This document shows, piece after piece, positions 5,150 to 54,254 of a DNA stretch of 64,000 nucleotides; the stretch's first letter is position 1; each line of letters starts with the position of its first letter. The notes beneath the pieces are model-generated. The model did no database searches. It saw nothing but the letters and a program-made list of their open reading frames with translations, and had not been told where the DNA came from. Location: NCBI GenBank assembly GCA_903813345.2, contig CAIIXF020000009.1:37503759-37567758 (forward strand). Direction: 5' to 3'. Both the position numbers and the translations under genes were made by a program. The stretch is from Owenia fusiformis. Taxonomy: Eukaryota; Annelida; Polychaeta; Sabellida; Oweniidae.

Positions 5150-8100
5150 ATGGTTGGTTACCATCCCACAAAGTATGAGTTGACCAAAAGAGATCATGCA
5201 ATTTCTGGTGCCGTCAGTGGGGTCATCACACGTGCCATGTGTCAGCCACTAGATGTCATTAAAATACGATTTCAGGTAAATAACCAGTGTGATATCATGA
5301 AAAAATTATTAGTTTGACCAATTTAGACATATCTGTATTATGAATCTAAATTAACAACTCTAATTAATATAAGATATTGTAGACTTTTTTGATATTTCTT
5401 TTTTGTTATCACATTTATTCCTTCTCATTTTTTACTGCCTCTTTAATTAGACAGATTCAAACTTTTTTAATTAGCGCAATGGTAAACCTGCATTTACAAT
5501 GGTGCATTTACCATCCTTCTTCTTTAATTGGAAAAATATTTCAATTGAAAAATAATTTTTAAAAAAGCAGAATAACAGATTATTTTTTATGAGTTCCTCA
5601 AGTGAACTATACCATACTTCTAATAAACACACATCAACAAAGTGTTTTCATTGTTAACCAAAGATTTGAAAAGTGAATCTTAATAATGTCTGGTTTATCA
5701 TATAAAGTCCTTATTAAATACCCAAGTATTTTATCTACCTTGTCAAAGTTTGATCTAATATGTGCATATGTAGACTCTTAGAGCTAAGAGCATGTACAAT
5801 TATTTCTTATTAGTGATATGAGCACTGAATGCTCTTGTACACCAAGGGGTATCTAGCACTATAATATTAATTTCAAAGATATAAAAAATGTTTGGGGAAT
5901 TGATCTCATTCATAATGCATTTTATTAAATGTTACAGTTACAGATTGATCCAATTAAACCGTCACATAGTTCAAAATACCATGGAATAAGACAGGCCATA
6001 AGTTGTATTGTAAAAGAAGAAGGTGTCTTAGCTCTGTGGAAGGGGCACACTCCTGCTCAGTGCCTCTCTGTAGTATATGGCTGTGTTCAGGTGTGTAACT
6101 ACTTTGATGCACGATGCAAACTGTTTGGATCAGTGTAAGTTTTCTTTTCATCATTATACAAAAGAAAGCAAGAAATTGGACCTAAACATAAAGAAGGCAA
6201 TTTTGAAATGATTTTGCTTCATGATTTTGATCGGAAATATTGGTTGAAAATCAAGATGACTTGCACTGTGAACAAACAATTGCATCTAAAATATGATCTG
6301 GATAGAAAGTGCCATGGTCAGTTTTCATTTTATAACTTCAAAGGCAAACTAATCTGTTTGTTTGATGGAACAATACATCACTAAATTATGTAACAATAAA
6401 GTAAAAAATGGCTTCTGAAATTTTTAATGAAAACTGACCATACACCAAAACTTTCTATCGAGGGGGTATTCTGTAATAAAACTCAAATATGCTTCTTTTT
6501 TAGTTACAAACAGAACCCATATCTAAAGCACCGAAATCAAAATATTACAGTATCAGACAATCATTCAGGTCTATAATACGGGAAGAGGGGTATCAAGCTT
6601 TGTGGAAAGGCCATTTAACGGCACAGTTGTTCACAGTTGTATATGGCCCTGCTACGGTAAGCTAGTAGGATAAGATGGGAATATGGGAGGGTAGGGCTAC
6701 TACCACTGTGAATGGAAGCCCTGGGAAAGATTCACCATATGGCACAGTGCTCTCCTTAGGTTTTTCTCATCAGCTTGCTTATTTCTTATTTTATCTGTTT
6801 TGTTTTTATGCATTAACATGTACAGTAAAACCTGTCTAAATGGAATACCTTTGGTACTTCTAAAAAGTGTTCCACTTGGGAGGTGGTTCATATGTAGCAT
6901 TGTCATTTGGTCTCAAATAGTGCTCTATTAACAGAAGTGTTCCACCTTTAGAGGGGTTCCACTTTACAAGTTTCATTGTACATTTACATAACTGGACATT
7001 GGAAAAGTGGGGTCTGTCTTGCCTCATTGTCAACCTTGACCCAGGTTAATAACTCTTGAAGTGGAACAACACCAAAGTGGAACATTTTTTTATGTTAAAG
7101 GCTGTGTTGTTAAGTCGGATACTTACCACATTGGTTCTCTTATGCTTTTTCCAGATTCATGTCATCGTAACACTAGCAACACTTACAATTGAACTAAATA
7201 TCATAATAATAATAATTATGTAAGTTCTATCATTTATTTATATTCTAACAATTGCGTATAATACACATTTATTTAAAAAAATTACCCCCAGTAATAGACT
7301 GTGAGCCATTCTGTAGAAGTGCTCTAGAAATGCAACCTTCCTTACATGAAAGGTTACACATTCCAACCTATTTCAAACCATCTGTATGATTATACTAGAC
7401 ACTTTCTGGGTAGTTGGACTTTCTACAGGGGTGGCAGACGGTCCTCAGACCAATTAATACCCCTACCCCCAAAAAACCATGGGGGTACTTTAATACCACC
7501 CAATAAAAAGAATACTAATGCATGTCAGATATTCATTGTTTTATATTGGGTAGGGCATGTTATGGTTAATAAGTGCCAGAAATTTCCAATCTCTAACTTA
7601 TATGGTTACCATAGTAACAGTATTTATATCTCGAAATATTCTCAATTTGACCCACTCCCAAATGTGTCCCTTTGTTCTCAAAGTGAAATATTTCAAAATC
7701 TGTTTGGATTTTATGGCTGCTACTTTGTCAAAATTTGTAATATTATGTCTGTATTAACACTAAAACACTTAAAAGTTGATATAATGATCCTATAAATCAA
7801 TAATATTTATCAAATATAGTCACACATAGCTGCTTTCAGGGAAAAGTGGGCGTGGCACTTTTTGGTACTTGTGCGCTTGTTGCAGCATTAAATGAAAAAT
7901 GCAGATTACATCAACAATAATTGACATTTAATTAGCATCTACTAATGTTGTGTAACATTGTAATATGTTCATTATCATTATTAGACACTTTAAATATTTT
8001 ATATAAGTGTTATCCTGACCCTTCCCTATCATAGGTCATCAATGGTCAAATGAACTTTTACTTTAAGTCTTATAGGGTCCTCGGTCTTTTAAGCCTGTCA

Positions 8101-11100
8101 AGAGTCAAGTCTTACTTATTCATTGACTTGTTCCTAGAATATGAATGGATAAGTTCAAGTCATCTAGAGCTATTCAAGTCATCTATGCTTGTTCAACAAT
8201 GTTCAATATTTAGAACCATTTTACCATGTTTACTGCAATTGAAAAGTAATGAACAGTTCAATCCTTTTGGTATGATATTTGATGCTAGTGTGAATTGCAT
8301 AACATTTATGATTAAACTTAAATGAACTTATTTAACTCTGGCTATTAACCCTTCCCTAATATCCTTCACATAACCTCTAAATCATCTTCATATCCATGGC
8401 CTAAATTGGGAAGGAGGGAGGGGTTACAAATAGTGACGAGGATAATTTGAATCAAAGCAAGAAGACGTAATACTCAAAACTAGAAAGATTGGAGACCATT
8501 TATACCCTTCCTAATATTTTGCCTTATACATAACACTAAAATATATTTTGTCAGACACTTGCTGATTCTTTTATCAATACCTCAACATCAGGCAATGCAT
8601 GATCTATCCAATGGATTAAAGATTATACTTGATTCTAATATGGCAAAATTAATTTTTCGTATGAATTGCATAGAGCATCATTTTGCAGTTATAATAAAAT
8701 GCATCCATTCATTCATTGGCTCATAGTTAACAAAAAAGCTATTGTCTGGAAGGTACAGTATAATTTCTATTAGTATTTAGCAAAATAATTGCAAGATAAA
8801 CAATTTACACATGTTTCTGATATGCTGTATTTTCAATGATTCCTTCAATAGTGGTTCGGTATATGTTTTTGAAATACTTCATATAATTCCTAAACAAATC
8901 TGTTTAGTGTATGAAATCAAAGTAGATACATTTGTCCCATACTTGGATATGTTTCAGATACATATAGCAGGTTTATAAATACTTATATTTTCATCAGCGG
9001 GCAGGTATAGCTAATGTCCCTGCCTGAGAGGGCAGATATATTACACCTGCCCACTAAGTCATAATCATCATTTGTGTATGATTAGCAATGAGGGAAGTAG
9101 CATACTTAATACATATGTTAATAATCAATGATTCGAGAATATGTGGATGAATACTTAAAAAAACAGTAGAATCCTCCTAAGGCCAAGAAAACAAAATTAG
9201 TCATGAATACATTCATTTGGTTGTATTCTTTCTAACTCTGGCCAATTGAACAATGTGAACCAGATAAGAAAGATTGATATGGGATAAACAGATAATCATA
9301 TAGTCAGTTCATGCTATTAGGATTATCCCTTGGCGAATATAATGTATCTTCCCTCAGGACCTAAGGCCTTTGGCCAATAGAAAATATCTTCCCTCGGGAC
9401 CTACGACCCTCGACCAGATATATTATATTGGCCTCGGGATAATTCCAATACCCTGAACCTCATAGAGGATAATCTCTATTCGTCTTCATCAATTATTATT
9501 ATACATATAAATCGGGATATAAATATAACCTATAGTAAGAAATTACATTCTCTAACCAGTAATATTTAATTTTAAAATTGGTAAATGATGATTATGTCAC
9601 AATAGAATTGATGACCATGATTTATTTGAGAATAAAACAGACAAAACAAAGGCTAACAAAAATCTTTAAAAATTTGGGTAAAACATAAATATTTTAAAAT
9701 TGCTTGTTTTTCATCATTATTACTTCGATCTCCAAACCCCAAAAATTGAGTGTTACAAATTGTTTCAAGATAAAGTATGCCTAATTTCATGAGCAAACTA
9801 GTAATCTTGTTGGATATTTTTCCTCGACAATGCCTTATCTAATTCATCTATATACAAACTACTAGATTCCAAATGCTATTTTATTTTTATGGGTGTTCAT
9901 GAAATGGGTGTTCATGAAAGTAACACTAAACATCAATTTTGTCATAAACTGAACAATGCAGCTAATTGATTCTCCCATCTAAGCAACAGAGCCTGTTTTA
10001 ATATATTGTAATTTCAAAATTGCCCCTAATGAAGTTCTTCAATCAAATCTAAAATGGACACAACTGGTAATATATTTATACCATATGAGTAGAATGTTTG
10101 TTTCTTTCAAATTCATGCTTTCGTTAGAAACATGGATATCACTAATTCATAGTTTTGATCCATATTTAAAATGGTGTGCATTATATATGAGGTTTAATTA
10201 ATGGGAAGTTTTTAATACAGGGAAATACAATATATCTGAGGGAAATACAATATACCTCCCCGAGCAGGGGTTGAGGGTAGAATATTGTATTTCCCAAGGG
10301 TTATACCTTGTACCCAAAATTATTTATCATATACTAATATACGAAAATATGAGAAATTGCACAGAATGAAATTCCTGCAGGGGATTTCTGAGCAGGTGAT
10401 AAACCTGGTGATACATAGAGATTATCCTATATGAGGTTCAGGATATTGGAACTATCCCGATTCAAATATAATATATCTGCCCAAGGGCGATTATGACGGA
10501 GTGGGCAGATATACCATCGCTACTACGCTCACAACAGAACGTAAAGCTATATCTGCCCGCTGATGAAAATATAAGTTCACCTAACCTAAGGCATCAATTA
10601 TATTCATGCATTTTATTTACCTATAACACTAAGTATAGGATAAATAACTTTTACTGACAAATTATATAAGTGCATGATTACATTAGTCACAACTACTCAC
10701 TAAAAGGTAACTTATTGCATGAAGAAATGTAATTCTTCATGAAGATTTCAAATATGATATCACTTATTTGACTGAATTTTGAATTTTTAATGATGTAAAG
10801 CAAGCTTATTTCTACTTGCATCTAAGTCTATTTCATTGTATAAGTCAACAATTAATAAGGCAAATACATATCACTGGCTTCCCTGATTCATTTAGATTCC
10901 TTGCACTTTTAAAATCATCAATAATTCATATAGGGTTGAACTATCGAATAATGAAAACGTTGCAAATGATGTGATAGAAGTTTTTATACTATTTAGCTTG
11001 GAAATATTGCTGATATAGTTTTAATGTGATTTTAGGAGATTAAATGTTCTACTGAGGAACTTTGATTATAATGTACAATTTACTAGGATCTTTAACTTTC

Positions 11101-14100
11101 TGAAAAAGGTCGTGCTAAATTCTCATTGAGACGATGTTAAAAATCTTAATGTTGACTTCCTAAATGTTGAATTCTTTTGATTGTCATGAATTTAAGGTTC
11201 ACACAAAATCTGAAGATCATCTAGTTTCAAACACAATCTGAATCTCATTAAGTTTGATGCGAAAGCAGTTTTACTTTAATCCAAAATAACAAATATGGTA
11301 AATCAATATGTGTCTATGGTAGATGCTAGCGTGTAGTCCAACCAGCACAAGTGCTGCCATCTACCTATCCATTCATCAGTTTAGCACCTAATAAGGTCAG
11401 TACTCATGGTAAAGCTTTTGTACCTTGTCTATGGTAAAAATAAATCAAACAGAAATGTTAACTTGACACGATTGGTAATGCCCACCTTGAAGGGTGTAAG
11501 GATAAAGGGAAGGGTCAGGATAACACTTATATAAAATATTTAAAGTGTCTAATAATGATAATGAACATATTACAATGTTACACAACATAAGTAGATGCTA
11601 ATTAAATGTCAACTGTTGTTAGTATAATATGTATTTTTCATTTAATGCTGCAACAAGTACACACGTACCAAAAAGTGCCACACCCACTTTTCCCTAAAAG
11701 CAGCTATGTGTGACTATATTTGATAAATATTATTGATTGATAGGATCATTATGAACACTTTTCAGTGTTTAAATGTTAAAATATACATATTGATACAATT
11801 TTTGACAAAGTAGCAGCCATAAAATCCAAACAGATTTGCAAATATTTCACTTTGAGAACAAAGGGACACATTTGGGAGGGGGTCAAATTGAGAATATTTC
11901 GAGATATAAATACTGTTTCTATGGTAACCATATAAGGTAGAGATTGGAAATTTCTGGCACTAACTAACCATAACATGCCCTACCCAATACAAAATAATGA
12001 ATATCTGACATGCATTAGTATTCTTTTTATTGGGTGGTATTAAAGTACCCCCATGGTTTTTTGGGGGTAGGGGTATAAATTGGTCTGAGGGCCGTCTGCC
12101 ACCCCTATAGAAAGTCCAACTACCCAGAAAGTGTCTAGTATTATCATACAGATGGTTTGAAATAGGTTGGAATGTGTAACCTTTCATGTAAGGAAGGAGT
12201 TACAATTATCAGAGTGGGCCGTAGTCTATAATGTTTATTAGATAATTAAGTTAATTATTCCACTGAACAAACTTTTTGGGTGTTTATAATTGAAGTAATA
12301 TTTATCCCATCAAACAAAGGGGTCCATATAAACTGCAACCAGACTCCTATTGTTACTACAAATAATTAGCTACATGATAACAATTTGTACTCAAGAGCCA
12401 GAGTTACTGGTTGTAGTTTGCACACTTCGCAAACAAAGTCCAAGGGATACAAAGAATGTCCACCATTTCTCAATATTATGTTGTTCCAGTCAATACTCAA
12501 ATACTGATACAATTAGTGACTTAAGTCTCCAACTGTTTTGTGGATGGTGTTTGGCATTCAGGGTTCAGCATTTGGTGTTTGTTGTTCAGTGGTCAAGACC
12601 GTCTACTTGCTTAGATGTTTGGGATTCACTATGCCCTGACACCGTGTCTTGTATTAACACAGTGCTGAAATGATTTAATTGTTATCAATTTGTTTTTGTT
12701 CTATATTTTAAAATTGCATAGTTTATGTTCCAACAATGTGCATGGTGGAGTAGCTCCTGTGAGATTACTGATAGATTTAGAGCCTGGAAAACATAATTTA
12801 TAAGAATAGGGTTAGCTTGAGAAAATAATAAATTGACTGCACTTTTGTAATTGAACCAAGTGGTAAAAATTTGTGATATGTTAATGCCTTGTTTAACTGC
12901 TTTTAACTACATGCTTACTGTTTCTTTCAGTTTGTATCTTTTGAGATTCTGACAAAACAAGCGTGGAACTATCTTCCCGAACATTACTCTACAGACTATC
13001 GCCCAATTACTCACTTTGTGTGTGGAGGAATATCAGGATGTGTCGCTAGTGTGGCATGTCAGCCATTTGATGTGACTCGAACACGACTTGTTGCTCAGGG
13101 TGAACCCAAGGTAACATTTACTAGGATAGGAAAATTGTACCTATATATTATGAATCAATTAAGACAGGTGTGGACAGCAAACACAAATTCACAGGATAAA
13201 TATGATATCCTATGATGGCTACCATTTTAATTCACTCATGGATATCGCCCATCTCCAATCATGGATAAGAATGGTATTTTTCAAAAATCATGGGATATCC
13301 TCTCTGTATCTATGTTTCCCCTTATTCAATGATTTATGAATATTTTTTAAGATTTACAATGGCATTCTTCATGCATGGAAATGTATGCTGGCTGAGGGAC
13401 CACTAACATTTTATAAGGGCCTGGTTCCAACTCTAGTCCAAGTGGCACCCTATTCAGGGTTACAGTTTGGTGTTTATTCCCTTTTCAAGAACATTTGGAA
13501 CATGACTCTGCCAGATGGGGAGCACCATTCTAAATATGCAGGTATTTTAGAAAAGAAACAATTTAAAACAAATTTCTAGTTACAAACTTGATGTAAATAT
13601 GTATTGTAGGGTTTGAAATGTATAGCTTGAATAAAGTAGTCCGATTGCCAGCTTTTATGAGAAAGGAATATAATTTTAAGAGGTCTTCTAATTACTAATG
13701 AAGTTTGAAATTTTGACAATTTTATCAAGATCTGCAAAATTTGATTTTGAAAATGCCAATTTTGATCAAGTAGAAATGTCTGATTTCATTTATTTCCCAC
13801 ACTCATGTGACATTCATATATGTGTGTATGTATGTGTAAAGGCTGTTGGATTAAATTCCAGGTATGCTTGAAAGTTTAATTTGTGGCTTTGGTGCAGGAG
13901 TCGTCGCAAAAGGTGTCATCTATCCATTCGACCTAATCAAAAAAAGACTTCAAGTTCAAGGTTTCGAAGAAGCTCGAAAAACATTTGGAAAAGTGAGACA
14001 TTATACTGGATTATCGAACTGCACTAAGTGCATCATACGAGATGAGGGACTGAAAGGCCTATATAAGGGCCTCAGCCCAAGTTTGATCAAAGCTGCAGCA

Positions 14101-14169
14101 GTGACAGGTTTGGCTTTCTTTGCATATGAACAATGTTGCAGTTTTATTGTTATGGTCAAGTCCAGTTGA
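5150..14169 (+). CDS. SLC25A19: Mitochondrial thiamine pyrophosphate carrier (SLC25A19 family)
   Basis: Inner-membrane carrier importing thiamine pyrophosphate into mitochondria. Coding exons: 5150-5275, 5938-6090, 12931-13110, 13352-13541, 13862-14169, all with GT-AG junctions and a continuous frame, giving 318 residues (the human protein is 320). The start MVGY matches the family, and an in-frame TGA lies at 5138-5140. Three tandem carrier repeats are visible. Their PX[DE]XX[KR]X[KR] signatures are at residues 33-40 (PLDVIKIR), 138-145 (PFDVTRTR) and 238-245 (PFDLIKKR). The EEG...LWKGH and EG...FYKG motifs follow the first two. The segment AQGEPK after the second signature and LQVQGFEEAR after the third are SLC25A19-like. 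A polyadenylation signal AATAAA lies at 14312. Intron 2 holds the alternative exon at 6504-6656 and the large inverted-repeat structure at 7294-12229. Confidence 0.93.
6301..6459 (+). repeat. Intronic inverted repeat between exons 2a and 2b
   Basis: In the 413-bp intron separating the two exon-2 copies, GATAGAAAGT (6301-6310) is complementary to 6450-6459, and TGGTCAGTTTTCATT (6315-6329) is complementary to 6426-6440. That gives 25 perfect pairs with one small internal loop and a terminal loop of about 96 bases. It could fold in the pre-mRNA and influence exon choice, or it could be the remains of a small inverted-repeat transposon. Confidence 0.6.
6504..6656 (+). CDS. SLC25A19: Alternative second coding exon (2b) of the SLC25A19 gene
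   Basis: This segment starts after a TTTTTTAG acceptor and ends at a GTAAGC donor. It is 153 bp, exactly the length of exon 2 (5938-6090), and has the same phase 0-0 boundaries. Its 51 codons are open. They align end to end with exon 2 at about 26 identical residues, sharing LQ..P at the start, SKY, IRQ, EEG, ALWKGH, AQ and VVYG. It covers the matrix loop after the first signature and most of transmembrane helix 2. It differs at LTAQLFTVVYGPAT versus TPAQCLSVVYGCVQ. Splicing in both copies would keep frame but add an extra carrier segment, so mutually exclusive use is the likely arrangement. A decayed relic is less likely given intact frame, length and splice sites. No transcript evidence is available. 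Confidence 0.8.
6823..6960 (+). mobile_element. Fragment of a pogo-like MITE
   Basis: CAGTAAAACCTGTCTAAAT preceded by TA (6821-6822) matches the left end of the complete element at 51621-52102 and of the fragments near 56283 and 56580. The following bases carry the same type of GTTCCAC and GGAACA blocks. No clear right terminal repeat was found; the boundary given is approximate. Confidence 0.5.
7294..12229. mobile_element. Large nested inverted-repeat (fold-back) structure in SLC25A19 intron
   Basis: A block at 7294-8027 recurs in inverted orientation at 11506-12229 with high similarity. Each copy contains an open frame starting MKGYTFQPISNHL, which appears on the + strand at 7346 and on the - strand at 12187. 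Between the arms is a second inverted pair: the segment around 8980-9060 plus 9400-9500 matches 10415-10578 in reverse complement, including the motif CATCAGCGGGCAG. No transposase is recognisable inside. The structure resembles a foldback-type transposon with a nested insertion, or a segment made by inverted duplication. Terminal bases and target duplication could not be fixed with confidence. Confidence 0.65.
8979..10578. repeat. Inner inverted-repeat element
   Basis: TTTTCATCAGCGGGCAG near 8990-9006 is repeated inverted at about 10554-10570. Further matching blocks follow: GCCCACT.AGTCATAATC, then GGATA.TTCCAATA.CCTGAACCTCATA. The left arm carries an extra segment of roughly 300 bases (about 9085-9395) absent from the right arm. 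The element is AT-rich with frequent CAGATATATT motifs and no coding region. Confidence 0.55.
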
Positions 14170-24519: not shown

Positions 24520-24523
24520 AGAG

Positions 24524-25213
24524 TGTTGGACATTTTCAGGAACACACTGTAAACTTATATTTTGATTAAATATTTGCTGCATGGAACTTATCATTTGGTT
24601 GACAGTTTTGAATGGTCAAGGAACAACTTGTTTTATCTATATGGGTTTAAAAGTTCAGTATGTCATGTTATGAGATTTATGGGTTTCTTCCAAAAAGTTG
24701 AAACTAAGGCATCAAAAAGATGTTGACAGATTAATAGTTTTCCTCACTCAGTGTTCTTGCATGACATTTTATTGACCCAGTAACAGACTGAGGTAGGGCT
24801 CAGTGAGACTGGACTCATTTCTGTTATCTTTTTAATCGGTTTTCTCACTCTGGACTTTTACTGACCTTGTGTCAGTTATTCCAAATTTATTGTTTTACTC
24901 ACTGTGTCCCTGAGTTGACCTTACTGAGAGTCTCAAATACTTTTGTAATGAAGATGATTAATTGTTTTTGTATTTTATTGCTTTCCTCACTTGGTCTCAC
25001 TTGGTCCAAGTATAAAAAGAACTTGTATAGATTTGTAGACACCTTTTCGGCTTGGCTTTAGATTGTGAAGATGTATTGTAATTTGTAACTGTTTGGACTA
25101 AACTTCGAAATTATTAAATAAAGTATGAGTATTAAGGAATCGACTTGTTTGTCATTCTTTACAAAATTAGATAAACTTTTAATAATGGATTGGACCGACC
25201 CAGGGGTCCAACA
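24524..25213 (+). repeat. 5' LTR
   Basis: 690 bp with TG...CA ends inside a short inverted terminal repeat (TGTTGGAC / GTCCAACA). A TATAAA box at 25011-25016 and an AATAAA signal at 25117-25122 are spaced as expected for an LTR promoter and polyadenylation site, implying U3 up to roughly 25040. The open frame at 24867-25061 is fortuitous and is duplicated in the other LTR. Confidence 0.88.
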
Positions 25214-27437
25214 CTGGTGGCAGCCTGGTGGAATTTTATATAACATTTCGTAAGGATTTCTGGAGACTTATAATTACGGACTTTAACATGCTTTTGATTG
25301 AAAAACGCTACCGAATTCAGTGAATGTATTATTTAGGATTGGAACTGATCACATTGATCTATTGATTCATTAACAGATGGAATTGGAATATTTAGATCTG
25401 GAAATATGATATAAAGAAACTAAGATTGAAAATTATTTTGAGTTGTTTTGATTGAGGTAAACAAATGGACTTACTGACCATTGCTTCTGTTGCTGTTTAT
25501 CAGCAAGCCAGCTGATGAACTTCCAGTGACCATTATTTTGTTTTGTAAAATTTGAACTTGGAAAATTTTGAGAGAAAAGCAGGAAAAAGTATGGCTGCTT
25601 TGGAAGTGTTCTAAGAGATTGTTGCACATGATTAGGATGCTATTATTTTGAGTCAATGCTGAACAATTTTATCAGAACGGAAAACGAGTTGTCAGGCTCA
25701 TGTATTTGATGCTGGATTTGATTGGACAGACGCGGACATTTCTCAAAATTAAAGGATGTATTCTTGTGAACAAGATAGACTTTTGGATAAAGTACTCGTT
25801 TTATGTGTTTACATATCTGAAGATGTCAACTCGGGATATGAATTGCTTCGATATCCAGCTTCACATAGTTGTATAGACTCAGAGACGAGACATTGCATAA
25901 CCATATAGTCGATTTATGTGTGATGTCGAGTAAGGAACAATCACTGTGGTATCAGAGATGTTAAGTGTCTCTGCTTATTATGACTTTTGTTTTGAGGACC
26001 TTGCATCATGGAGATAGCAATTTGATATCTGGGATATAGAAGTTGCTTCGTGAAGACCGATAACAATGAGAGGGCACATTCCTCATTGTACAGGGATTTT
26101 GAGTTTTATTGTGCTACATCGGGTAGAGACATGCAAGCTGGTGGTTCTTGACAAGTCGTTACACTTGTAGAATTCGTATATCAGCCCATATCTTGTAGAA
26201 AGGCATATAGACGAGTATGCCTATACCTGACTTTTGTTGGTGACTTCAGCCAAGGTGAATGTTTAGCGTATTGCGGTACCCAAGTTCCAATCACGCAGAT
26301 GTGATTGATGATTGATTTCCGGAAATATTGTGTTTTAACTCAGATAAGAGGGCCCAGAGACTATCTGAGTGTTAGGATGAACTGTATATCTACTGATGGT
26401 GATAAGTGTTATACAGAGATGATATTGAGGGACAATTAGTGTGACAGTGTTTAGTGTATCCTTGTTGTTGGCAAGGGCTGTTTTCATATAAGGTTCTAAG
26501 GCTTTAGAATGCAGACTCTCAAAAGGTGTGTTTCGTGCACATGTGACACATCTTGATGCAGAGTAGCCAAACAAAGACACAACTAATAACCTCAGCATCA
26601 GGTATGTGAAGACTTAATGCAGGGAGAACAAGGATTATGTCTGTGATACTGATGCGATCACTTGTTTTGAAAAGACAAACTGTGGTTGATTTATTAACAT
26701 GTGTAGCTGTCATCTCTCCCTATGATGCAAGATTCTGAATGGCCATTTTGGAGTACGGGTATAACGTGCAGTGATTCGTATTTTGGGAGAGTAACCTAGC
26801 CGTTGGGTGAAGGGCCCCTTTGAGAACACTGAATTATCACGATACTGTGTAAGGATCTTGCAAGTGACATTGATCGATTAAAGTGCACATGAAAATGTTT
26901 TGGAGAAGCAGAGAAACACTATAATTGATGTTTTGACAATTTTGGTTGTAGTTTTATTTAAGGAAATATTTTGGACATTTATTTCTAATGATTTTGCAAC
27001 CTTGTGCAATGAAAATTTACTGTTTCCTTATTTGATTGTGTGCCCTTAGATTTTATATAGACAATTTTATATTGTGTTTAAATGACCTTAAGTTGGCACA
27101 GTGAGAACATTAGAAGACAGTGCTCTGGTAAATTGGTAATACTTGTTAAAGATAAGGATTTTATCCTAATTGACCCACCATTGTACAGGTGGAAGAATTG
27201 AGACCTTCAGTGAATGTTGTTAAATGGTGATTTGACATTTAAAGTGGTAATAGCCTAAACTTTTATTGTAGATTGATTTAATTATGCAGATGTAATTTTA
27301 CTGAAGTTGTATCATTTGATTTGAAATTGATTATAGGTTTTATTTTATTCTTTATGTGTGACAGTTTTTAGCAATAATTGTAAGGTTTTGTTGATTGTAA
27401 AATTTCCAGGAGTAAATTTGAACTGGGGAGGGTGGTG

Positions 27438-28127
27438 TGTTGGACATTTTCAGGAACACACTGTAAACTTATATTTTGATTAAATATTTGCTGCATGGAA
27501 CTTATCATTTGGTTGACAGTTTTGAATGGTCAAGGAACAACTTGTTTTATCTATATGGGTTTAAAAGTTCAGTATGTCATGTTATGAGATTTATGGGTTT
27601 CTTCCAAAAAGTTGAAACTAAGGCATCAAAAAGATGTTGACAGATTAATAGTTTTCCTCACTCAGTGTTCTTGCATGACATTTTATTGACCCAGTAACAG
27701 ACTGAGGTAGGGCTCAGTGAGACTGGACTCATTTCTGTTATCTTTTTAATCGGTTTTCTCACTCTGGACTTTTACTGACCTTGTGTCAGTTATTCCAAAT
27801 TTATTGTTTTACTCACTGTGTCCCTGAGTTGACCTTACTGAGAGTCTCAAATACTTTTGTAATGAAGATGATTAATTGTTTTTGTATTTTATTGCTTTCC
27901 TCACTTGGTCTCACTTGGTCCAAGTATAAAAAGAACTTGTATAGATTTGTAGACACCTTTTCGGCTTGGCTTTAGATTGTGAAGATGTATTGTAATTTGT
28001 AACTGTTTGGACTAAACTTCGAAATTATTAAATAAAGTATGAGTATTAAGGAATCGACTTGTTTGTCATTCTTTACAAAATTAGATAAACTTTTAATAAT
28101 GGATTGGACCGACCCAGGGGTCCAACA
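27438..28127 (+). repeat. 3' LTR
   Basis: Copy of the 5' LTR with no difference seen by eye. It contains the matching TATAAA (27925-27930) and AATAAA (28031-28036). It is followed by the second AGAG of the target duplication. Confidence 0.88.
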
Positions 28128-34754: not shown

Positions 34755-35092
34755 TAACAAAGGAAGAATGATCTTATTCTGGTCTTATTACAAAGTAAGA
34801 ATGATCTTATTCTGGTCTTATTACAAAGGAATAATGATCTTATTCTGGTCTTATTACAAAGGAATAATGATCTTATTCTGGTCTTATTACAAAGGAAGAA
34901 TGATCTTATTCTGGTTTTATAACAAAGGTAGAATGATCTTATTCTGGTCTTATAACAAAGGAAGAATGATCTTATTCTGGTCTTATAACAAAGGAATAAT
35001 GATCTTATTCTGGTCTTATTACAAAGGAATAATGATCTTATTCTGGTCTTATTACAAAGGAAGAATGATCTTATTCTGGTTTTATAACAATG
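34755..35092. repeat. 33-bp minisatellite, about 10-11 copies
   Basis: A 33-base unit (core AATGATCTTATTCTGGTCTT followed by AT.ACAAAGGA) is repeated head to tail with few differences, mainly GGAAGAATG versus GGAATAATG and TTAC versus TAAC. Since 33 is a multiple of three, both strands read open and show an 11-residue repeat. These frames are products of the array and not genes. Confidence 0.85.
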
Positions 35093-37309: not shown

Positions 37310-38365
37310 TTTCAGTTTGTGTGTTTGGATCTGATTTTTCTGAAGTACATTGTGTGCTTGTTTTGAATTCTCTGAAGTACATTGTATGTTTTGTTCAAAT
37401 TTCTTAGAAGTAGTTTGTGTGTTTGCTCTGATTTCTCTAAAGTACAGTGTTTGTTTGGATCTGATTTCTCTGAAGTATATTGTGTGTTTGGATCTCATTT
37501 CTCTGAAGTACAGTGTGTGAAAGGATTTTTCTGAAGTACTTTGTGTGTTTGCTCTGATTTCTCTGAAGTATATTGTTTGTTTGTATCTGATTTCTCTGAA
37601 GTATATTGTATGCTTGGATTTGATTTCTCTGAAATACATTGTGTGTTTGGATCTGGTTTCTCTGAAGTATTTTGATTTCTCTGAAATACATTGTGTGTTT
37701 GGATCTGGTTTCTCTGAAGTATTTCAATTTCTCTGAAGTACATTGTATGTTTGCTCTGATTTCTCTGAAGTACATTGTGTATTTGGATCTGATTTTTCTG
37801 AATTATATTGTATGCTTGGATTTAATTTCTCTGAAATACATTATGTGTTTGGATCTGGTTTCTCTGAAGTATTTCAATTTCTCTAAAGTACATTGTATGT
37901 TTACTCTGATATCTCTGAAGTACATTATGTATTTGGATATCATTTCTTTGAAGTACATTGTGTGTTTAGATCTGATTTCTCTGAAGTACACTATGTGTTT
38001 GTTTTGATTTTTCTGAAGTAAATTGTGTTTTTACTTGATTTCTTTGAAGTACATTGTGTGTTTAGATCTGATTTCTCTGAAGTACACTGTGTGTTTGTTT
38101 TGATTTTTCTGAAGTAAATTGTGTTTTTACTTGATTTCTCTAAAGTACACTGTGTGTTTAGATCTAGATGAATGATGATCATTTAGATGAAGTATATTAT
38201 GTATTTGGATCTGATTTCTCTGAAGTATATTGTGTGTTTGCTCTGATTTCTCTGAAGTATATTATGTATTTGGATATCATTTCTTTGAAGTACATTGTGT
38301 GTTTAGATCTCATTTCTCTGAAGTATATTTTGTGTTTAGATCTCATTTCTCTGAAGTACATAAAG
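37310..38365. repeat. 1-kb minisatellite with units near 33 bp
   Basis: The unit is about 33 bases (core TTTCTCTGAAGTACATTGTG then TGTTTGGATCTGA). It is repeated roughly thirty times with substitutions, short deletions and one interruption near 38160-38200 (GATGAATGATGATCATTTAG). Several overlapping open frames on both strands come only from the period being a multiple of three. Higher-order blocks are visible: the stretch 37925-38030 is nearly repeated at 38040-38130. Confidence 0.85.
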
Positions 38366-48172: not shown

Positions 48173-51100
48173 TCATTCTTCCTCCCTTGGAGCTGGCATT
48201 GCTGGGGTGTAATTCACCAATGTGTGATAGCGCCTGAAGCATGGAGTAATGCAAAGTCCAACTCTGCAGTCAGGGCACCAATAGCGGCTTCTTGTGCCTG
48301 CGTAGGGCTTGTTGTGCAGAGGACGCTTTGCGCACACAGCACATATCTTTCTCTTGCCATCTGAAGCACAGTATACCAATACAAATGATTTATAATGACA
48401 TATAACATCAGGCCCATTTCATGGAGGAATTATTATATTATATATTTGTTTAAATACTGACTACATTATGAATTATTCCAGCTGATCAGGTTCTATGATA
48501 CACTCTGTAAACTACAAATCAATGCATCTTCTATTTATTCAATTATTTAATATTTTTCATTATTCATACAATTCAGTCAATATAACTGAAACTTTATTTA
48601 GCAACTTAGTGTGAACTTGTTGAATACTTACCAGGGATAAGATCAGGGAAGCACCTTGAGACCAACCTAGGGTTCCTTGCCTCAACATACACAGACCTTG
48701 GCCTCCCTATCACTGCTTCTTTTTGGTAGTCCCCCACCAGGTCATGAAGGAGGGCATTGTGGAAGGATCTATGGTCCAACCGACCACCAACTGTCTTGTA
48801 GGCAATGTAGGAGTTAACTTAAAGTACAATGAACAAAATGCGTGAAAATATGCAATGGATGTCATGCAAATAAATTTGTCTGTAGTAAGCAGCACTTTTT
48901 TTAAATTTTTAATAGTAAGAGTAGCAGTGTAAAATTAACTATACAATGTTTGCTATTTGTAACGGTGTAAGACCATGATATGAAAAATATGCTTTTCTTA
49001 TTTTTCTTATTAAAAATCGATGATGGGACTTGAATTTGATGATAGTCTTTATAAAATTTGCATGACTTTATTGAATGTACTCATTTTATCCTTTTTACTG
49101 ATTTTACTAATGTTACTAACTTCATATAAACCAGACATTGCTTCATTTTTTTACATAATAAGAAAGAAACATTTACTTCCTTTACCCTGGCCTAAAAGTC
49201 AATGTGTGATAGTGAAACATTGCTGAATGTGAGACTAATTACAATATTAATACAATACCTGTTACTTTCAACAAACAGTTGATGAGCAGTTTCTTCCACA
49301 ACTTAACCGATCTTATATGTGGGTTGAAAGGGGCCAGCATTTGATCACTCCTGTCAACACCTCCCATGGAATGATTATATTGGTGTACCATTTCTGGTTT
49401 CTGAACTTCCCTACCCCTCGCATTCGTTGTCTGGATCATCCTGCAAAATTGAAAGGGTGATCTGTTCTTTATAATCAATAATATAAAATAAAGATCTACC
49501 ATAGCATTTATTGTCATTTTTGAAAATATAATGAAGCACTTATGTTATGCTGGCCTGTAAATGAACTTTTAGTTAGTGCACTTAATGCTACTCAAGCTGG
49601 TCTTATCAGCTAGTGAGTGACGTCACTGCTAGGATTTCCCACCATATGGCCTAATGCTTACACAGAAACTCTTTGGTATCTAAAATGTGTGATCATCTTA
49701 AAAATAGTATTACAGCTTGTAATACATACTGAGTTGGGTCTTGAAATTAACACTTTGTGAAAGTACTACCCCTTCCTCTAATGTGTCCAGGGTTTCTCTT
49801 AATTTGAGTGAAAGTTTATCACATTAAAGCACCTTGATGACAGGCTGGTTAGTTAATAAATATATTCTCTCTGAACATTCTGGCAACTTGAACATTAAAT
49901 CTCTCAAAATTGCAGGAAGGGATCAACTTGATTCAAAATTGTTCATTTAGAGAATTGTCTTGCCTATGCAGGATTGAAAGAATTGTTTTGATCCCTTCCT
50001 GCAAACGCCCCCCAGACATATTTTACTAAGACTACCCCCAAAACTGGGAAACCCTAATCCTAGTTACATCTCACAAGCAAGTGGCTGTCTTTTAATAGCA
50101 ACCAAATGCCAGCAATGTTAAAAAGGTCAAGTTACACATTAGCGCTTTAGTGGTAGTCAGCTATGCAGGCTTTGTTTACATTCTGCAGCAGCTGATAGCA
50201 GGTCACCGGCTTTTCCTAAACTAAAAGATCACTGCTTAACATAAGTGGAAGTAAGAATCATTATTTTCTAGGATTTTTAACATTTCTTAAATGTGTATAA
50301 TATTTATTTTAGTGCATGATTGTAATACATGATGTAATTGCACCCTTTATTAGGTGTTCAAATGTTAAAAAGGTAATCATTAACCTAACAAAACATTAAA
50401 AATTCAGTTTTAGGTGGTAAAATACTTTTATACTTATTTATGTTACACATTTTCTCGATTAGAAACATTCAAAAGCAGATTTTGGCCTGTATAGCTTTTA
50501 GCTCTTACAACATGGAGAAAGGTTGTTAGTGTTATCTAGAAACTGAGAAACATGGGGGTTTAAGTTCAGGAAACCCCAAGTTAATTATACCAAGTCATAA
50601 ACCCACTATCCAATTACATAAATGACATTCTCTATATGAAGAAGTAAACTTAATGAATTAAATTGCAAAAACATTTTAAATACCTGGATGAATAAAGGGA
50701 TGACAGCATGGAAACTTGCTTTGTTGATCCATATTTCAAGAGGACTGTGTGGTCTTTGGAGAAGGTTGTGACTTCATCCTGCCCAACACGAAGAGTCCTG
50801 AAGCCTGCAGGGAGACCTCTCCTACCAGCGTTTATCATGCATGTCACATGCGTGTTTTCCCTCAGCATGTCATCAACCAAAGCAACAGAGCCAAATGCTT
50901 TGTCCAATGTTATGTGATGACCCTTGTTGAGATAAGGTGTGGCCAGCTCATTTACTAGGTCATAGCCAAAACCATGCTCTCCATAGTTTCCAAGACCAAG
51001 GTTTCTTCTTCCTAAGAGAAAATTTGAGACATAACCATTTATTTATTTTGACAGTAATAAAATGCTTCATAACATAACATAACATTTGCAACATAAATTA

Positions 51101-53527
51101 TCACACTCAGAGAAAAATGAGAAACACTTCATATTCATGACCTAAACTTAGATTAATTAGAAAGTGACATAATTTCACTAGACAATTTTAAACTGCCAAA
51201 AAATGAAAAATGAGTTCCATGAAAATGAGAAATGAAATATTCCCTCATTTTGAGCAGTAGTGTAATTAGGATCGACATTTATAACATATTATAGATATCT
51301 ATTGATAGGTACCTGTGTACATTTTCATGGCTGTGCTAAAAGCAGTAGCACTGTCAGCAACACTGTGTAGTTTTGCTCCAAAGCGTGCCCTCTTTGTTGG
51401 GATGTACTGCACTGATGCATCATGTCCTTTGTGGCCTAAGAATCAGAAAGAGCTAAATAAAAGAAGGTTAGCCAATTCAAACATTGAGTAATGGTTTCAT
51501 GTGGTAATTTCAAAAATATTGGCCCATATATTCAAAAAGAGGGAATTTCGGGAAATCCAATATGAAAGCCAAAATTTGCATGTAAACAAAGTTTTATTAT
51601 CAATATTGTAATTCAGTATACAGTAAAACCTGTCTAATTTAAACACCATTGGGGCCGGCTAAGTGTCCAGATTAGGAGGTTATTCTGGATTTTGAAGAAA
51701 TGTTAGTACATTCTAAATAAAATTACTAGTTCTTTTTACCATGTAGCTTTATGCCATTCAAATGATTCGAAAATTCAATTCAAATGAATTTAGTCATGCT
51801 AGAAACCCCCATTATGTTTGAGACCATTCAAGGTTTTTTCAAAAGTTTTGATATGACAAATCAGTGTGAACTTTCAAATATTTGATCAATTGTATGAAAC
51901 GTGTGATATGTATGAAAAATGTTCTATTTATTATAAGACAGGTTAATTTATATATGATTGTTCACTTTTCAAATTGGGAGGTGTTCATATTTCTAGGTTT
52001 TTCAATAATGGGAGTCAATGGGAGAACAAATGGGACTGATTAAAGTTTTCACCTTGAGAGGTGTATGGATAAGCCATGCGTTTGGATATGCAGGTTTTAC
52101 TGTACACAATTTTTTTCTACCTGTTTAAACCTGAACTTTGTATATTTTTTTAAAAGTTTAAGTTAAAGTTTATTCCAATCTTAACATGTCACATGCAATC
52201 AAATACAAAAAAAAATCAAATACAATGTGATAGATAATGATAGATTTGAGTTCATATACTTACCAACTAAAGATTCATCTATGCAGATGTCTCTTCCCAT
52301 CTGCCAACCCTCAGCAGATCTCTCATTTATGAGGTCAATCACTGGCTTTACCTTGAAGGAAGGATCAAATCCTAGCTGCCCCCTTGGAACTTGCAGTTGG
52401 TTATTGTTACAGTGCAGGAACCTGTAGATCAACTGCCACCTGTAGAGACATTTATGTGTAACTGTACATTATCATATAACTGGTAATGGTATCAGCTGGT
52501 ATCAAGTGTACATTATATATTTCAATATTGTTATATACATGTATATACTGCACAAAGCTATTTTGGGAGTTGATTATCTGTAGTATTTCATAAATCATAT
52601 ACTAAAAAACTTAAAATTGGGTTAAATAAGTAATATTAATATGTATTGTTGTTTCTAGGTTTTGAGGTTTAAGTTTTTTTCAATTTTCATGTAATTTATT
52701 ATTTCTTTCAAGTACCTGTTTCTTGACATGGTTTCACCGAAAGCTGGTGTATGCTGAAGCCTTGTCTCCATGCTGGTATTCCAGTATGAAGGCAGTGTGC
52801 CTTTCTGCACTACCCCCATGTTTAGAAGAAGGCCAATAAAGGCCTTCATCTCACAGTGTGTCGTATCCACCCACTCCCTTGCTCGCGAATGTTCTGCTAA
52901 GTCTTCGGAGAGGCATTGAGCGGCATACCTGGAATGAATGATAATATTCAGAGTCAATGTGTACTCAGTCTACTGTATTTACTGTTTAGGCTGTATACAT
53001 GTACCTGTACTGTACATGTAATATAGGTCTAATATATGTATAAAGTTACAAATTACAGTAGTAGGCAAGCCACCATTGGATTAAATGTACAATACAGTAT
53101 GGATATTTTGTATAGCACATGTAGATATCTAGCATAAAACAAACCTCATAAATATTGACTTCTAAGTATCTATGTATACTAGCCTAGTACTTGAGAGCAT
53201 ATGAACATACCTGTTTGTTTCATCAACCAAAATGTCAAACAGGTCAACCCTGACCTGACCAGGCTGGGTTCTAGTCGAGTAGAACATAAACCACTCTAAA
53301 GGTCTAGCTGTCGCCTCTGGGGAACCTGCAGTGGGCCCCTGCCTCAACCCAAACCTAACATTTGTTAGATCCACCTCTTCGGGACCACATTGGGTCCACT
53401 CCCCGTCACCCTGGACACCCCCTACTGCCCCTTGTACTACATCATCGTCCTCATCATCAGTACTTAGTGGTGAAAAATCGTTTTCAGACAAGTTGTCAAA
53501 CCAATCAAGTTCGACATTGGCAGCCAT
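48173..53527 (-). CDS. PiggyBac transposase-derived protein, eight coding exons
   Basis: Exons on the - strand: 53527-53211, 52928-52716, 52439-52264, 51435-51313, 51011-50684, 49440-49259, 48817-48632, 48360-48173. All junctions are GT-AG and the frame is continuous: 1713 bases, 570 residues, the usual piggyBac length. The acidic N-terminus (residues 19-30) is followed by the conserved ETNRYA at 103-108. The DDE_Tnp_1_7-type catalytic domain shows IDESL with D231, YIPTKRARFGAKL at 246-258, TLDKAFGS with D313, and YNHSMGGVDRSDQM with D415 and D418. The three Asp of the transposase triad are thus kept. The C-terminus has a zinc-binding cysteine-rich domain (C515, C518, C537, C540, C545, C549, H554). 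DKAFGS replaces the more usual DNFYTS. Intact coding over seven introns favours a domesticated host gene, or a recently active intron-bearing transposon. An alternative start lies five codons upstream at 53542. Confidence 0.9.
49911..50003. repeat. 16-bp perfect inverted repeat in piggyBac-gene intron
   Basis: TGCAGGAAGGGATCAA at 49911-49926 and its exact complement at 49988-50003 bound a 93-base segment in the intron between exons 5 and 6. It may be a tiny MITE or an RNA hairpin. Confidence 0.5.
51621..52102. mobile_element. Pogo-like MITE in piggyBac-gene intron
   Basis: CAGTAAAACCTGTCTAA at the left and CAGGTTTTACTG at the right are terminal inverted repeats, with TA outside each (51619-51620 and 52103-52104). 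Pogo/Tigger-type elements share the CAGTAAAACC terminus. At 482 bp it has no transposase. It sits between exons 3 and 4 of the piggyBac-derived gene without harming the splice sites. Confidence 0.75.
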
Positions 53528-54254
53528 ATTGGTTACTATCAACTATTACCAAAAGTAGGTCATGAATGACCACGAATTATTCCTAAGTAAATCATAAATT
53601 ACCGAAAATACATGCAGTATTCATATATAATTTACTTTTTACTACCTACAAGATATCAAGACTAATCAAATTTCACATTAGTTCAAGTAAAACAATCCTA
53701 ATTTATATGTTAAAAATTCAAAAACAATGAAAAAAAGTGAAGCAACAAATTTTGTGACCTGTCATTTTGTTTTTCTTTGTAGGAATAAAAATTGCACTTT
53801 ACTCTACCTCGACACGATATTCCCCTCTAACGAATACAGAAAAGGCAAAAAAACTGTATTTCTGATTTTTCTAACAAGATTCTATTGTATTTATAACATG
53901 AGCTTGGATAAAATCGAAATGGCATGAAATCAAAAATGATTAGTCCCATTGTTATGATCATGTGACGGTCATGTGATACTCTAAATTTTCGAAAGATTTG
54001 ATTCAGGTAATTTTTCTCTGCTTTTATGCATGATTTCTCCTTTCCCTGGGTCAACTATACACTGTAAACAAGTTCTACGCAACTAATTTGCCTATATGTA
54101 TTTATCTGTGTGGTTGATTGGTTGATAAAACAAATAAATAAACATAAATAATCAAAGGTCTGCACTTCAAGAAATTCTCACGTTGAAACGACATAAATGT
54201 CGTAATGGCACGAAGACGGGAAACGACATATATGTCGTAACGGCACCAAAGAGG
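53528..54254. other. Upstream region of the piggyBac-derived gene
   Basis: About 730 bases between the start codon and the terminal-like sequence ending at the TTAA of 54255. The promoter was not identified. The open frame at 53727-53927 shows no known domain. Confidence 0.3.

Follow-up and report, generated by a model that had tools for sequence, protein, structure and literature searches.

The SLC25A19-like gene and its two versions of exon 2

The window, by which we mean the whole 64,000-nucleotide stretch of Owenia fusiformis DNA analysed here, has a G+C content of 32.5% and carries on its + strand a gene for an SLC25A19-like carrier (5150-14169; 318 codons). The gene model is complete from start codon through TGA, and an in-frame stop lies four codons upstream of the ATG at 5150. 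The second exon is present in two versions, here named 2a and 2b:

5150-5275, + strand: exon 1, with the start codon, helix 1 and, at its end, the motif PLDVIKIRFQ; ends in phase 0
5938-6090, + strand: exon 2a, 51 codons, phase 0-0
6091-6503, + strand: intron between 2a and 2b, 413 nt
6504-6656, + strand: exon 2b, 51 codons, phase 0-0, a diverged alternative version
12931-13110, + strand: exon 3, whose first residues FVSFE form the remainder of helix 2, followed by the helix 3 region
13352-13541, + strand: exon 4
13862-14169, + strand: exon 5, with the TGA stop

The first-pass annotation had placed 2a and 2b at these coordinates as open, 153-nt exons of phase 0-0 between AG and GT, and the sequence bears this out exactly. 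The acceptors read gttacag/TTA (2a) and cttttttag/TTA (2b), the donors CAG/gtgtgt (2a) and ACG/gtaagc (2b), and splicing as 1-2a-3 or as 1-2b-3 yields 318 residues in either case.

In line with the first-pass annotation, alignment with the human protein supports an SLC25A19-like identity. The identity counts against the human sequence are approximate. With 2a, 161 of 318 aligned columns are identical (50.6%; residues 1-310 of 318), and with 2b 155 of 318; within the exon itself the counts are 28/51 for 2a and 22/51 for 2b, so that 2a is the closer of the two. Membership in the SLC25 family is indicated by a match of Pfam PF00153 to the first-repeat piece with either exon, together with three Px[DE]xx[KR] motifs in the spliced protein (PLDVIK, PFDVTR, and PFDLIK). 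The 13 PDB sequences matched by the carrier are all other carriers, none of them named SLC25A19, and scans of viral and prokaryotic contig collections gave no relative. The product is predicted to be a mitochondrial thiamine pyrophosphate carrier of the animal, SLC25A19-like type.

Other elements in the window

Transposase pieces, which we take to be piggyBac-type, lie on the - strand at 48176-52969, where three open stretches match DDE_Tnp_1_7 (49242-49544, 50653-51042, and 52658-52969) and positions 48176-48418 encode a zf-Tnp_2 zinc finger; no family could be assigned to another open stretch, 53165-53542. Two identical direct repeats of 691 bp (24523-25213 and 27437-28127; ends TGTTGGAC...GTCCAACA), possibly flanked by a 4-bp AGAG target duplication, enclose about 2.2 kb without an open frame of 100 aa, and the pair looks like a young LTR element. 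Imperfect palindromes at 1998-2762 (about 765 bp, 89% identical to its own reverse complement) and 702-1096 (about 395 bp, 76%) are probably fold-back elements. Tandem arrays with 33-bp based units occupy 34757-35090 and 37317-38361, and the latter also shows higher-order periodicity, for instance at 65, 98, and about 200 bp.

Similarity and age of the two exons

Exons 2a and 2b align without gaps and share exactly 26 of 51 residues, in agreement with the earlier estimate of about 26, and the motifs EEG...ALWKGH stand in both, as had also been claimed. At the nucleotide level 90 of 153 bases are identical, and the differences at codon positions 1, 2, and 3 number 18, 14, and 31 (51 sites each). 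All 51-residue stretches in the six frames of the window were scored against 2a (BLOSUM62, ungapped). Exon 2b scored 134, the next stretch, inside exon 5 of the same gene, scored 36, and the best of the remainder 17, which excludes chance similarity of 2a and 2b. The six-frame scan and a tblastn search with the human protein revealed no third copy of exon 2 in the window.

The introns beside the two exons are dissimilar, with 22 of 60 bases matching upstream and 18 of 60 downstream. Flanks without visible similarity give no hint of a recent duplication and fit an old one.

The same searches (tblastn, six-frame scan) showed that none of exons 1, 3, 4, and 5 has a second copy in the window. This bears on the idea that 2b is part of a separate transcript, started perhaps at an internal promoter, or of a gene that was duplicated in part. 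Nothing was found in favour of such an arrangement: no further copy of the other exons lies within the window, and the 2b frame lacks a methionine codon and is closed by a stop immediately upstream of the exon. We regard it as very unlikely.

Probable selection on exon 2b

The comparison of synonymous and non-synonymous substitution called for in the first-pass annotation (NG86) gave pN 0.30 and pS 0.80, and by this measure together with the simulations below both exons look constrained; silent sites between them are saturated at this pS. The bootstrapped pN/pS ranged from 0.23 to 0.58 and stayed below 1 in all 2,000 resamples, and third codon positions were overrepresented among the differences (Fisher p 0.0008).

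As a low ratio alone could stem from constraint on 2a only, the neutral evolution of 2b was simulated with 20,000 runs per distance d. A copy was counted as surviving when its frame was still open, it kept AG/GT and 26 or more identities, and it had no indel, the indel rate being assumed at 0.05 per substitution. If all changes are placed on 2b, the implied distance is 0.35 from second positions and 0.62 from all sites. At d = 0.35, 6 of 20,000 neutral copies survived, and at 0.4, 0.5, and 0.6 the count was 0 of 20,000 each. Without the indel rule the survivors numbered 112, 35, 4, and 0 at d = 0.35, 0.4, 0.5, and 0.6, respectively; at smaller distances, with the rule kept, they numbered 25/20,000 (d = 0.3) and 256/20,000 (d = 0.2). 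Since neutral simulations almost never give such a copy at the implied distances, 2b has very probably been retained as an exon by selection.

These results weigh directly on the possibility that 2b is a fossil, no longer spliced and decaying without a stop by chance. The larger distance of 2b from the human sequence (22 identities versus 28 of 51) and the weak branch motif near it, described below, would suit a fossil, and skipping of an exon is invisible in DNA. However, an open, spliceable copy with 26/51 identities almost never appeared in the neutral simulations at the implied divergence, and 2b has retained its splice dinucleotides and carrier motifs, which makes a fossil highly unlikely. 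Exon 2b departs alone from the human sequence at nine positions and 2a at three (binomial p 0.15), and constraint on 2b may thus have been relaxed. From these comparisons we infer that 2a represents the ancestral type, with 2b perhaps the faster-evolving of the two.

Predicted effect of the exchange on the carrier

The 51 exchanged residues lie between the motif PLDVIKIRFQ of exon 1 and FVSFE of exon 3. With assumed helix borders, identity between 2a and 2b is 5/12 in the loop, 6/14 in the h12 matrix helix, 9/11 in the EEG...ALWKGH linker, and 6/14 at the start of helix 2.

In alignment with the yeast ADP/ATP carrier, residue 85 of the 2a form stands opposite the arginine numbered R79 in 1okc and R88 in 6gci. 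With either exon, residue 85 also aligns with the helix 4 arginine in uncoupling proteins. For the 2b form the aligner opens a one-residue gap immediately ahead of this position, and the ADP/ATP carrier match would then move to residue 86; residue 85 is preferred because 2a and 2b align ungapped. In most alignments the exons differ at the residue placed at contact point I, with L85 in 2a versus F85 in 2b, and under the alternative aligner choice the pair becomes S86 (2a) versus T86 (2b). Residue 85 is Leu in both 2a and the human sequence, and Phe in 2b. Exon 2b also departs from 2a and from that human sequence in P81T, S86T, and Q93T. Positions 86 and 93 are presumably cavity-facing.

R88 belongs to contact point I, which has been proposed to distinguish between substrates within one class; contact points also act as hinges during transport (PMC7611774, PMC12410006). 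It is plausible that the two predicted carriers differ in kinetics or substrate preference. A stronger reading is that the swap exchanges the half of helix 2 that contacts substrate and retunes contact point I, so that the isoforms carry two cargoes: one might take thiamine pyrophosphate, for example, and the other thiamine monophosphate or a nucleotide. A regulated splice switch would then select the isoform according to tissue or diet. We hold this to be doubtful and offer it tentatively.

Splice sites and probable mutually exclusive use

Exons 2a and 2b have the sequence features of a mutually exclusive exon cluster, being adjacent, homologous, equal in length, of the same phase, and provided with compatible splice sites. 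Exon 2b itself looks spliceable, perhaps with reliance on help. The pairing of its donor with U1 has an energy of -8.2 kcal/mol, and those of all five donors in the gene span -6.5 to -9.3. Six of the nine consensus positions match in this donor (ACG/GTAAGC), the lowest value in the gene, tied with exon 3. The 2b acceptor has 12 pyrimidines in 17 positions and that of 2a has 10, the five acceptors of the gene ranging from 9 to 13. Four YTNAY motifs lie near the 2a acceptor, at -14 to -35, and no full YTNAY branch motif occurs within 60 nt of the 2b acceptor, the nearest being at -67.

Neither frame nor splice-site type is seen to enforce exclusivity at this locus. The reading frame does not impose it, as the joint product is open over 369 aa and the skipped product over 267 aa; both stay in frame, so a frame shift would not clear joint or skipped transcripts. 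Incompatibility of U2 and U12 sites is likewise not seen. The donors are GTAAAT, GTGTGT, and GTAAGC, and no U12 donor or branch pattern was found in the stretches scanned, which were intron 1, the 2a-2b intron, and the initial 680 nt of the intron between 2b and exon 3. A criterion for steric hindrance in human exons is a distance of less than 50 nt from donor to branch point, as given in PMC5740500. With 413 nt between 2a and 2b, a branch point at the customary place would be much more than 50 nt away from the 2a donor, as estimated from intron length, and simple steric crowding is an unlikely cause of exclusivity.

This situation leaves room for 2b as a real but minor cassette exon that is not strictly exclusive, with a joint 2a+2b product of 369 residues that is non-functional or regulatory. 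The 153-nt exons hold frame in all combinations, neither frame nor a U12 site obstructs the joining of 2a to 2b across 413 nt, and an acceptor without a strong branch motif nearby would suit a weakly used exon. The fold of the protein argues against it. When only the first-repeat piece is scored, Pfam Mito_carr gives 72.8 bits with 2a, 69.1 with 2b, and 28.0 with neither, and with both exons it matches two stretches in succession (95.2 bits in total). Because only the single-exon forms give a full first repeat, the carrier fold appears to demand exactly one exon 2; the joint product, with two h12/helix-2 segments, would be unsuited to a six-helix carrier. We therefore rate a minor cassette exon as unlikely.

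Our preferred reading, to which we assign a probability of about 0.7, is that 2a and 2b are an old duplicated pair, both functional, of which each mRNA takes one, giving two carriers of 318 residues. We infer the use of 2b in mRNA and the exclusivity of the two exons from sequence features. As proposed, exon 2 would have been tandemly duplicated long ago in the SLC25A19-like gene, giving two functional homologous exons, and the pre-mRNA would be spliced as 1-2a-3 or 1-2b-3. The resulting isoforms would differ only in the h12 region and the matrix side of helix 2, to and beyond contact point I. As neither frame nor U2/U12 type bars the joining of 2a to 2b, and the intron measures 413 nt, a splicing regulator or an RNA structure would have to make the choice.

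Candidate control elements in the introns

Two elements between 2a and 2b are candidates for such control:

6298-6462, + strand: intron hairpin, inverted repeats in the 2a-2b intron
6348-6353, + strand: QKI-type ACUAAY hexamer, single, between 2a and 2b

The RNA of the 2a-2b intron folds more stably than shuffled sequences (z -4.99, 0/100 as good; z -5.68 with 30 shuffles). The inner arms of the hairpin (6314-6329/6426-6441) match over 16 nt at 100% and the outer arms (6298-6310/6450-6462) over 13 nt at 92%, with mean pairing probabilities in a wider context of 0.98 and 0.91, respectively. Since 2 of 103 control stretches of the window fold as unusually, structure of this strength is uncommon here without being unique, and the hairpin could be an ordinary fold-back repeat; a search of the window for other copies, as a sign of a mobile element, found nothing beyond 13-nt matches. 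Within 80 nt of the 2b acceptor there are two YTNAY motifs, with the A at -77 and -67, and the branch-type motif at -67 (CTGAC, window 6434-6438) is part of the 3' side of the hairpin stem and paired there.

We also considered, and rejected, the idea that folding compacts the intron enough to block joining sterically, the graph distance from 2a donor to 2b acceptor (median 45 over 300 sampled structures) being unremarkable, with 20 of 60 shuffled introns folding equally short or shorter. Nor was the hairpin recognised as a known RNA: the whole window gave no Rfam match at the gathering score, and two minus-strand matches to miRNA families below that score, with E-values of 0.17 and 0.5, we took as chance.

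One ACUAAY hexamer between the exons compares with 0.43 expected by chance, a weak excess. YGCTTY occurs twice (0.22 expected) and TCTT twice (1.98 expected), and the remaining regulator patterns tried between the exons gave zero matches. These motif counts are too few to weigh, and the hexamer as a putative QKI control site is no more than a lead.

Further downstream, two 692-bp inverted copies that are 94% alike (7336-8027 and 11506-12197) both lie in the 6.3-kb intron between 2b and exon 3, which they could shorten by pairing in the pre-mRNA.

Comparison with known systems

The mitochondrial phosphate carrier gene SLC25A3 has homologous exons 3A and 3B that are used singly, isoform A in heart and muscle and isoform B in all tissues at a lower level (PMC7226361, PMC5740500). 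This is, as proposed for 2a/2b, an alternative homologous exon pair in a mitochondrial carrier, but it concerns another gene and another substrate. We take cavity position 14 of SLC25A3 to lie in helix 1. With Gly72 read in this way, and with exon 2 here following PLDVIKIRFQ, the exchanged segment appears to be different: helix 1 in SLC25A3 as against h12 and the start of helix 2 in the present gene, a distinction drawn from the published position. Gly72, at cavity position 14, is encoded by exon 3A (PMC7226361). The mutually exclusive exons 3a and 3b of Slc25a3 are regulated by QKI and have ACUAAY between them (PMC10202634). The motif thus stands between the exons in both genes, here as a single copy near chance expectation.

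Closer to the gene studied here are human SLC25A19 and Drosophila Tpc1 and Tpc2, which belong to the same carrier family. A table in PMC7504413, a review of Drosophila carriers, lists three mRNAs and one polypeptide for human SLC25A19 and two mRNAs and one polypeptide for Drosophila Tpc1, and the review text uses 'mutually exclusive' 0 times. A 2026 study of SLC25 exons reports that many intron positions are conserved inside each subfamily and makes the case that new specificities could have arisen when carriers recombined segments with one another; its examples of alternatively spliced carriers include the phosphate carrier, and its main text has 'mutually exclusive' 0 times (PMC13385207). 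The first-pass annotation knew of no exon swap at this place in SLC25A19, and the literature searched, with matches examined in part, yielded no report of one.

The human base rate calls for caution on the exclusivity of 2a and 2b: of 6,541 candidate mutually exclusive exons, 855 received high-confidence validation, and among 158 pairs annotated as exclusive 29 turned out not to be so (PMC5740500).

Significance for the carrier family

Exons 2a and 2b appear to form a real and old pair of alternative exons, very probably maintained by selection and probably used one at a time. Carriers with mutually exclusive exons are already known from SLC25A3, and a pair in an SLC25A19-like gene would be an addition to them. 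If the proposal is true, the gene would provide a natural isoform pair, identical in the rest of the protein, as a ready-made test of discrimination at contact point I. Splicing would then supply carrier diversity where Drosophila has two genes, Tpc1 and Tpc2 (PMC7504413).
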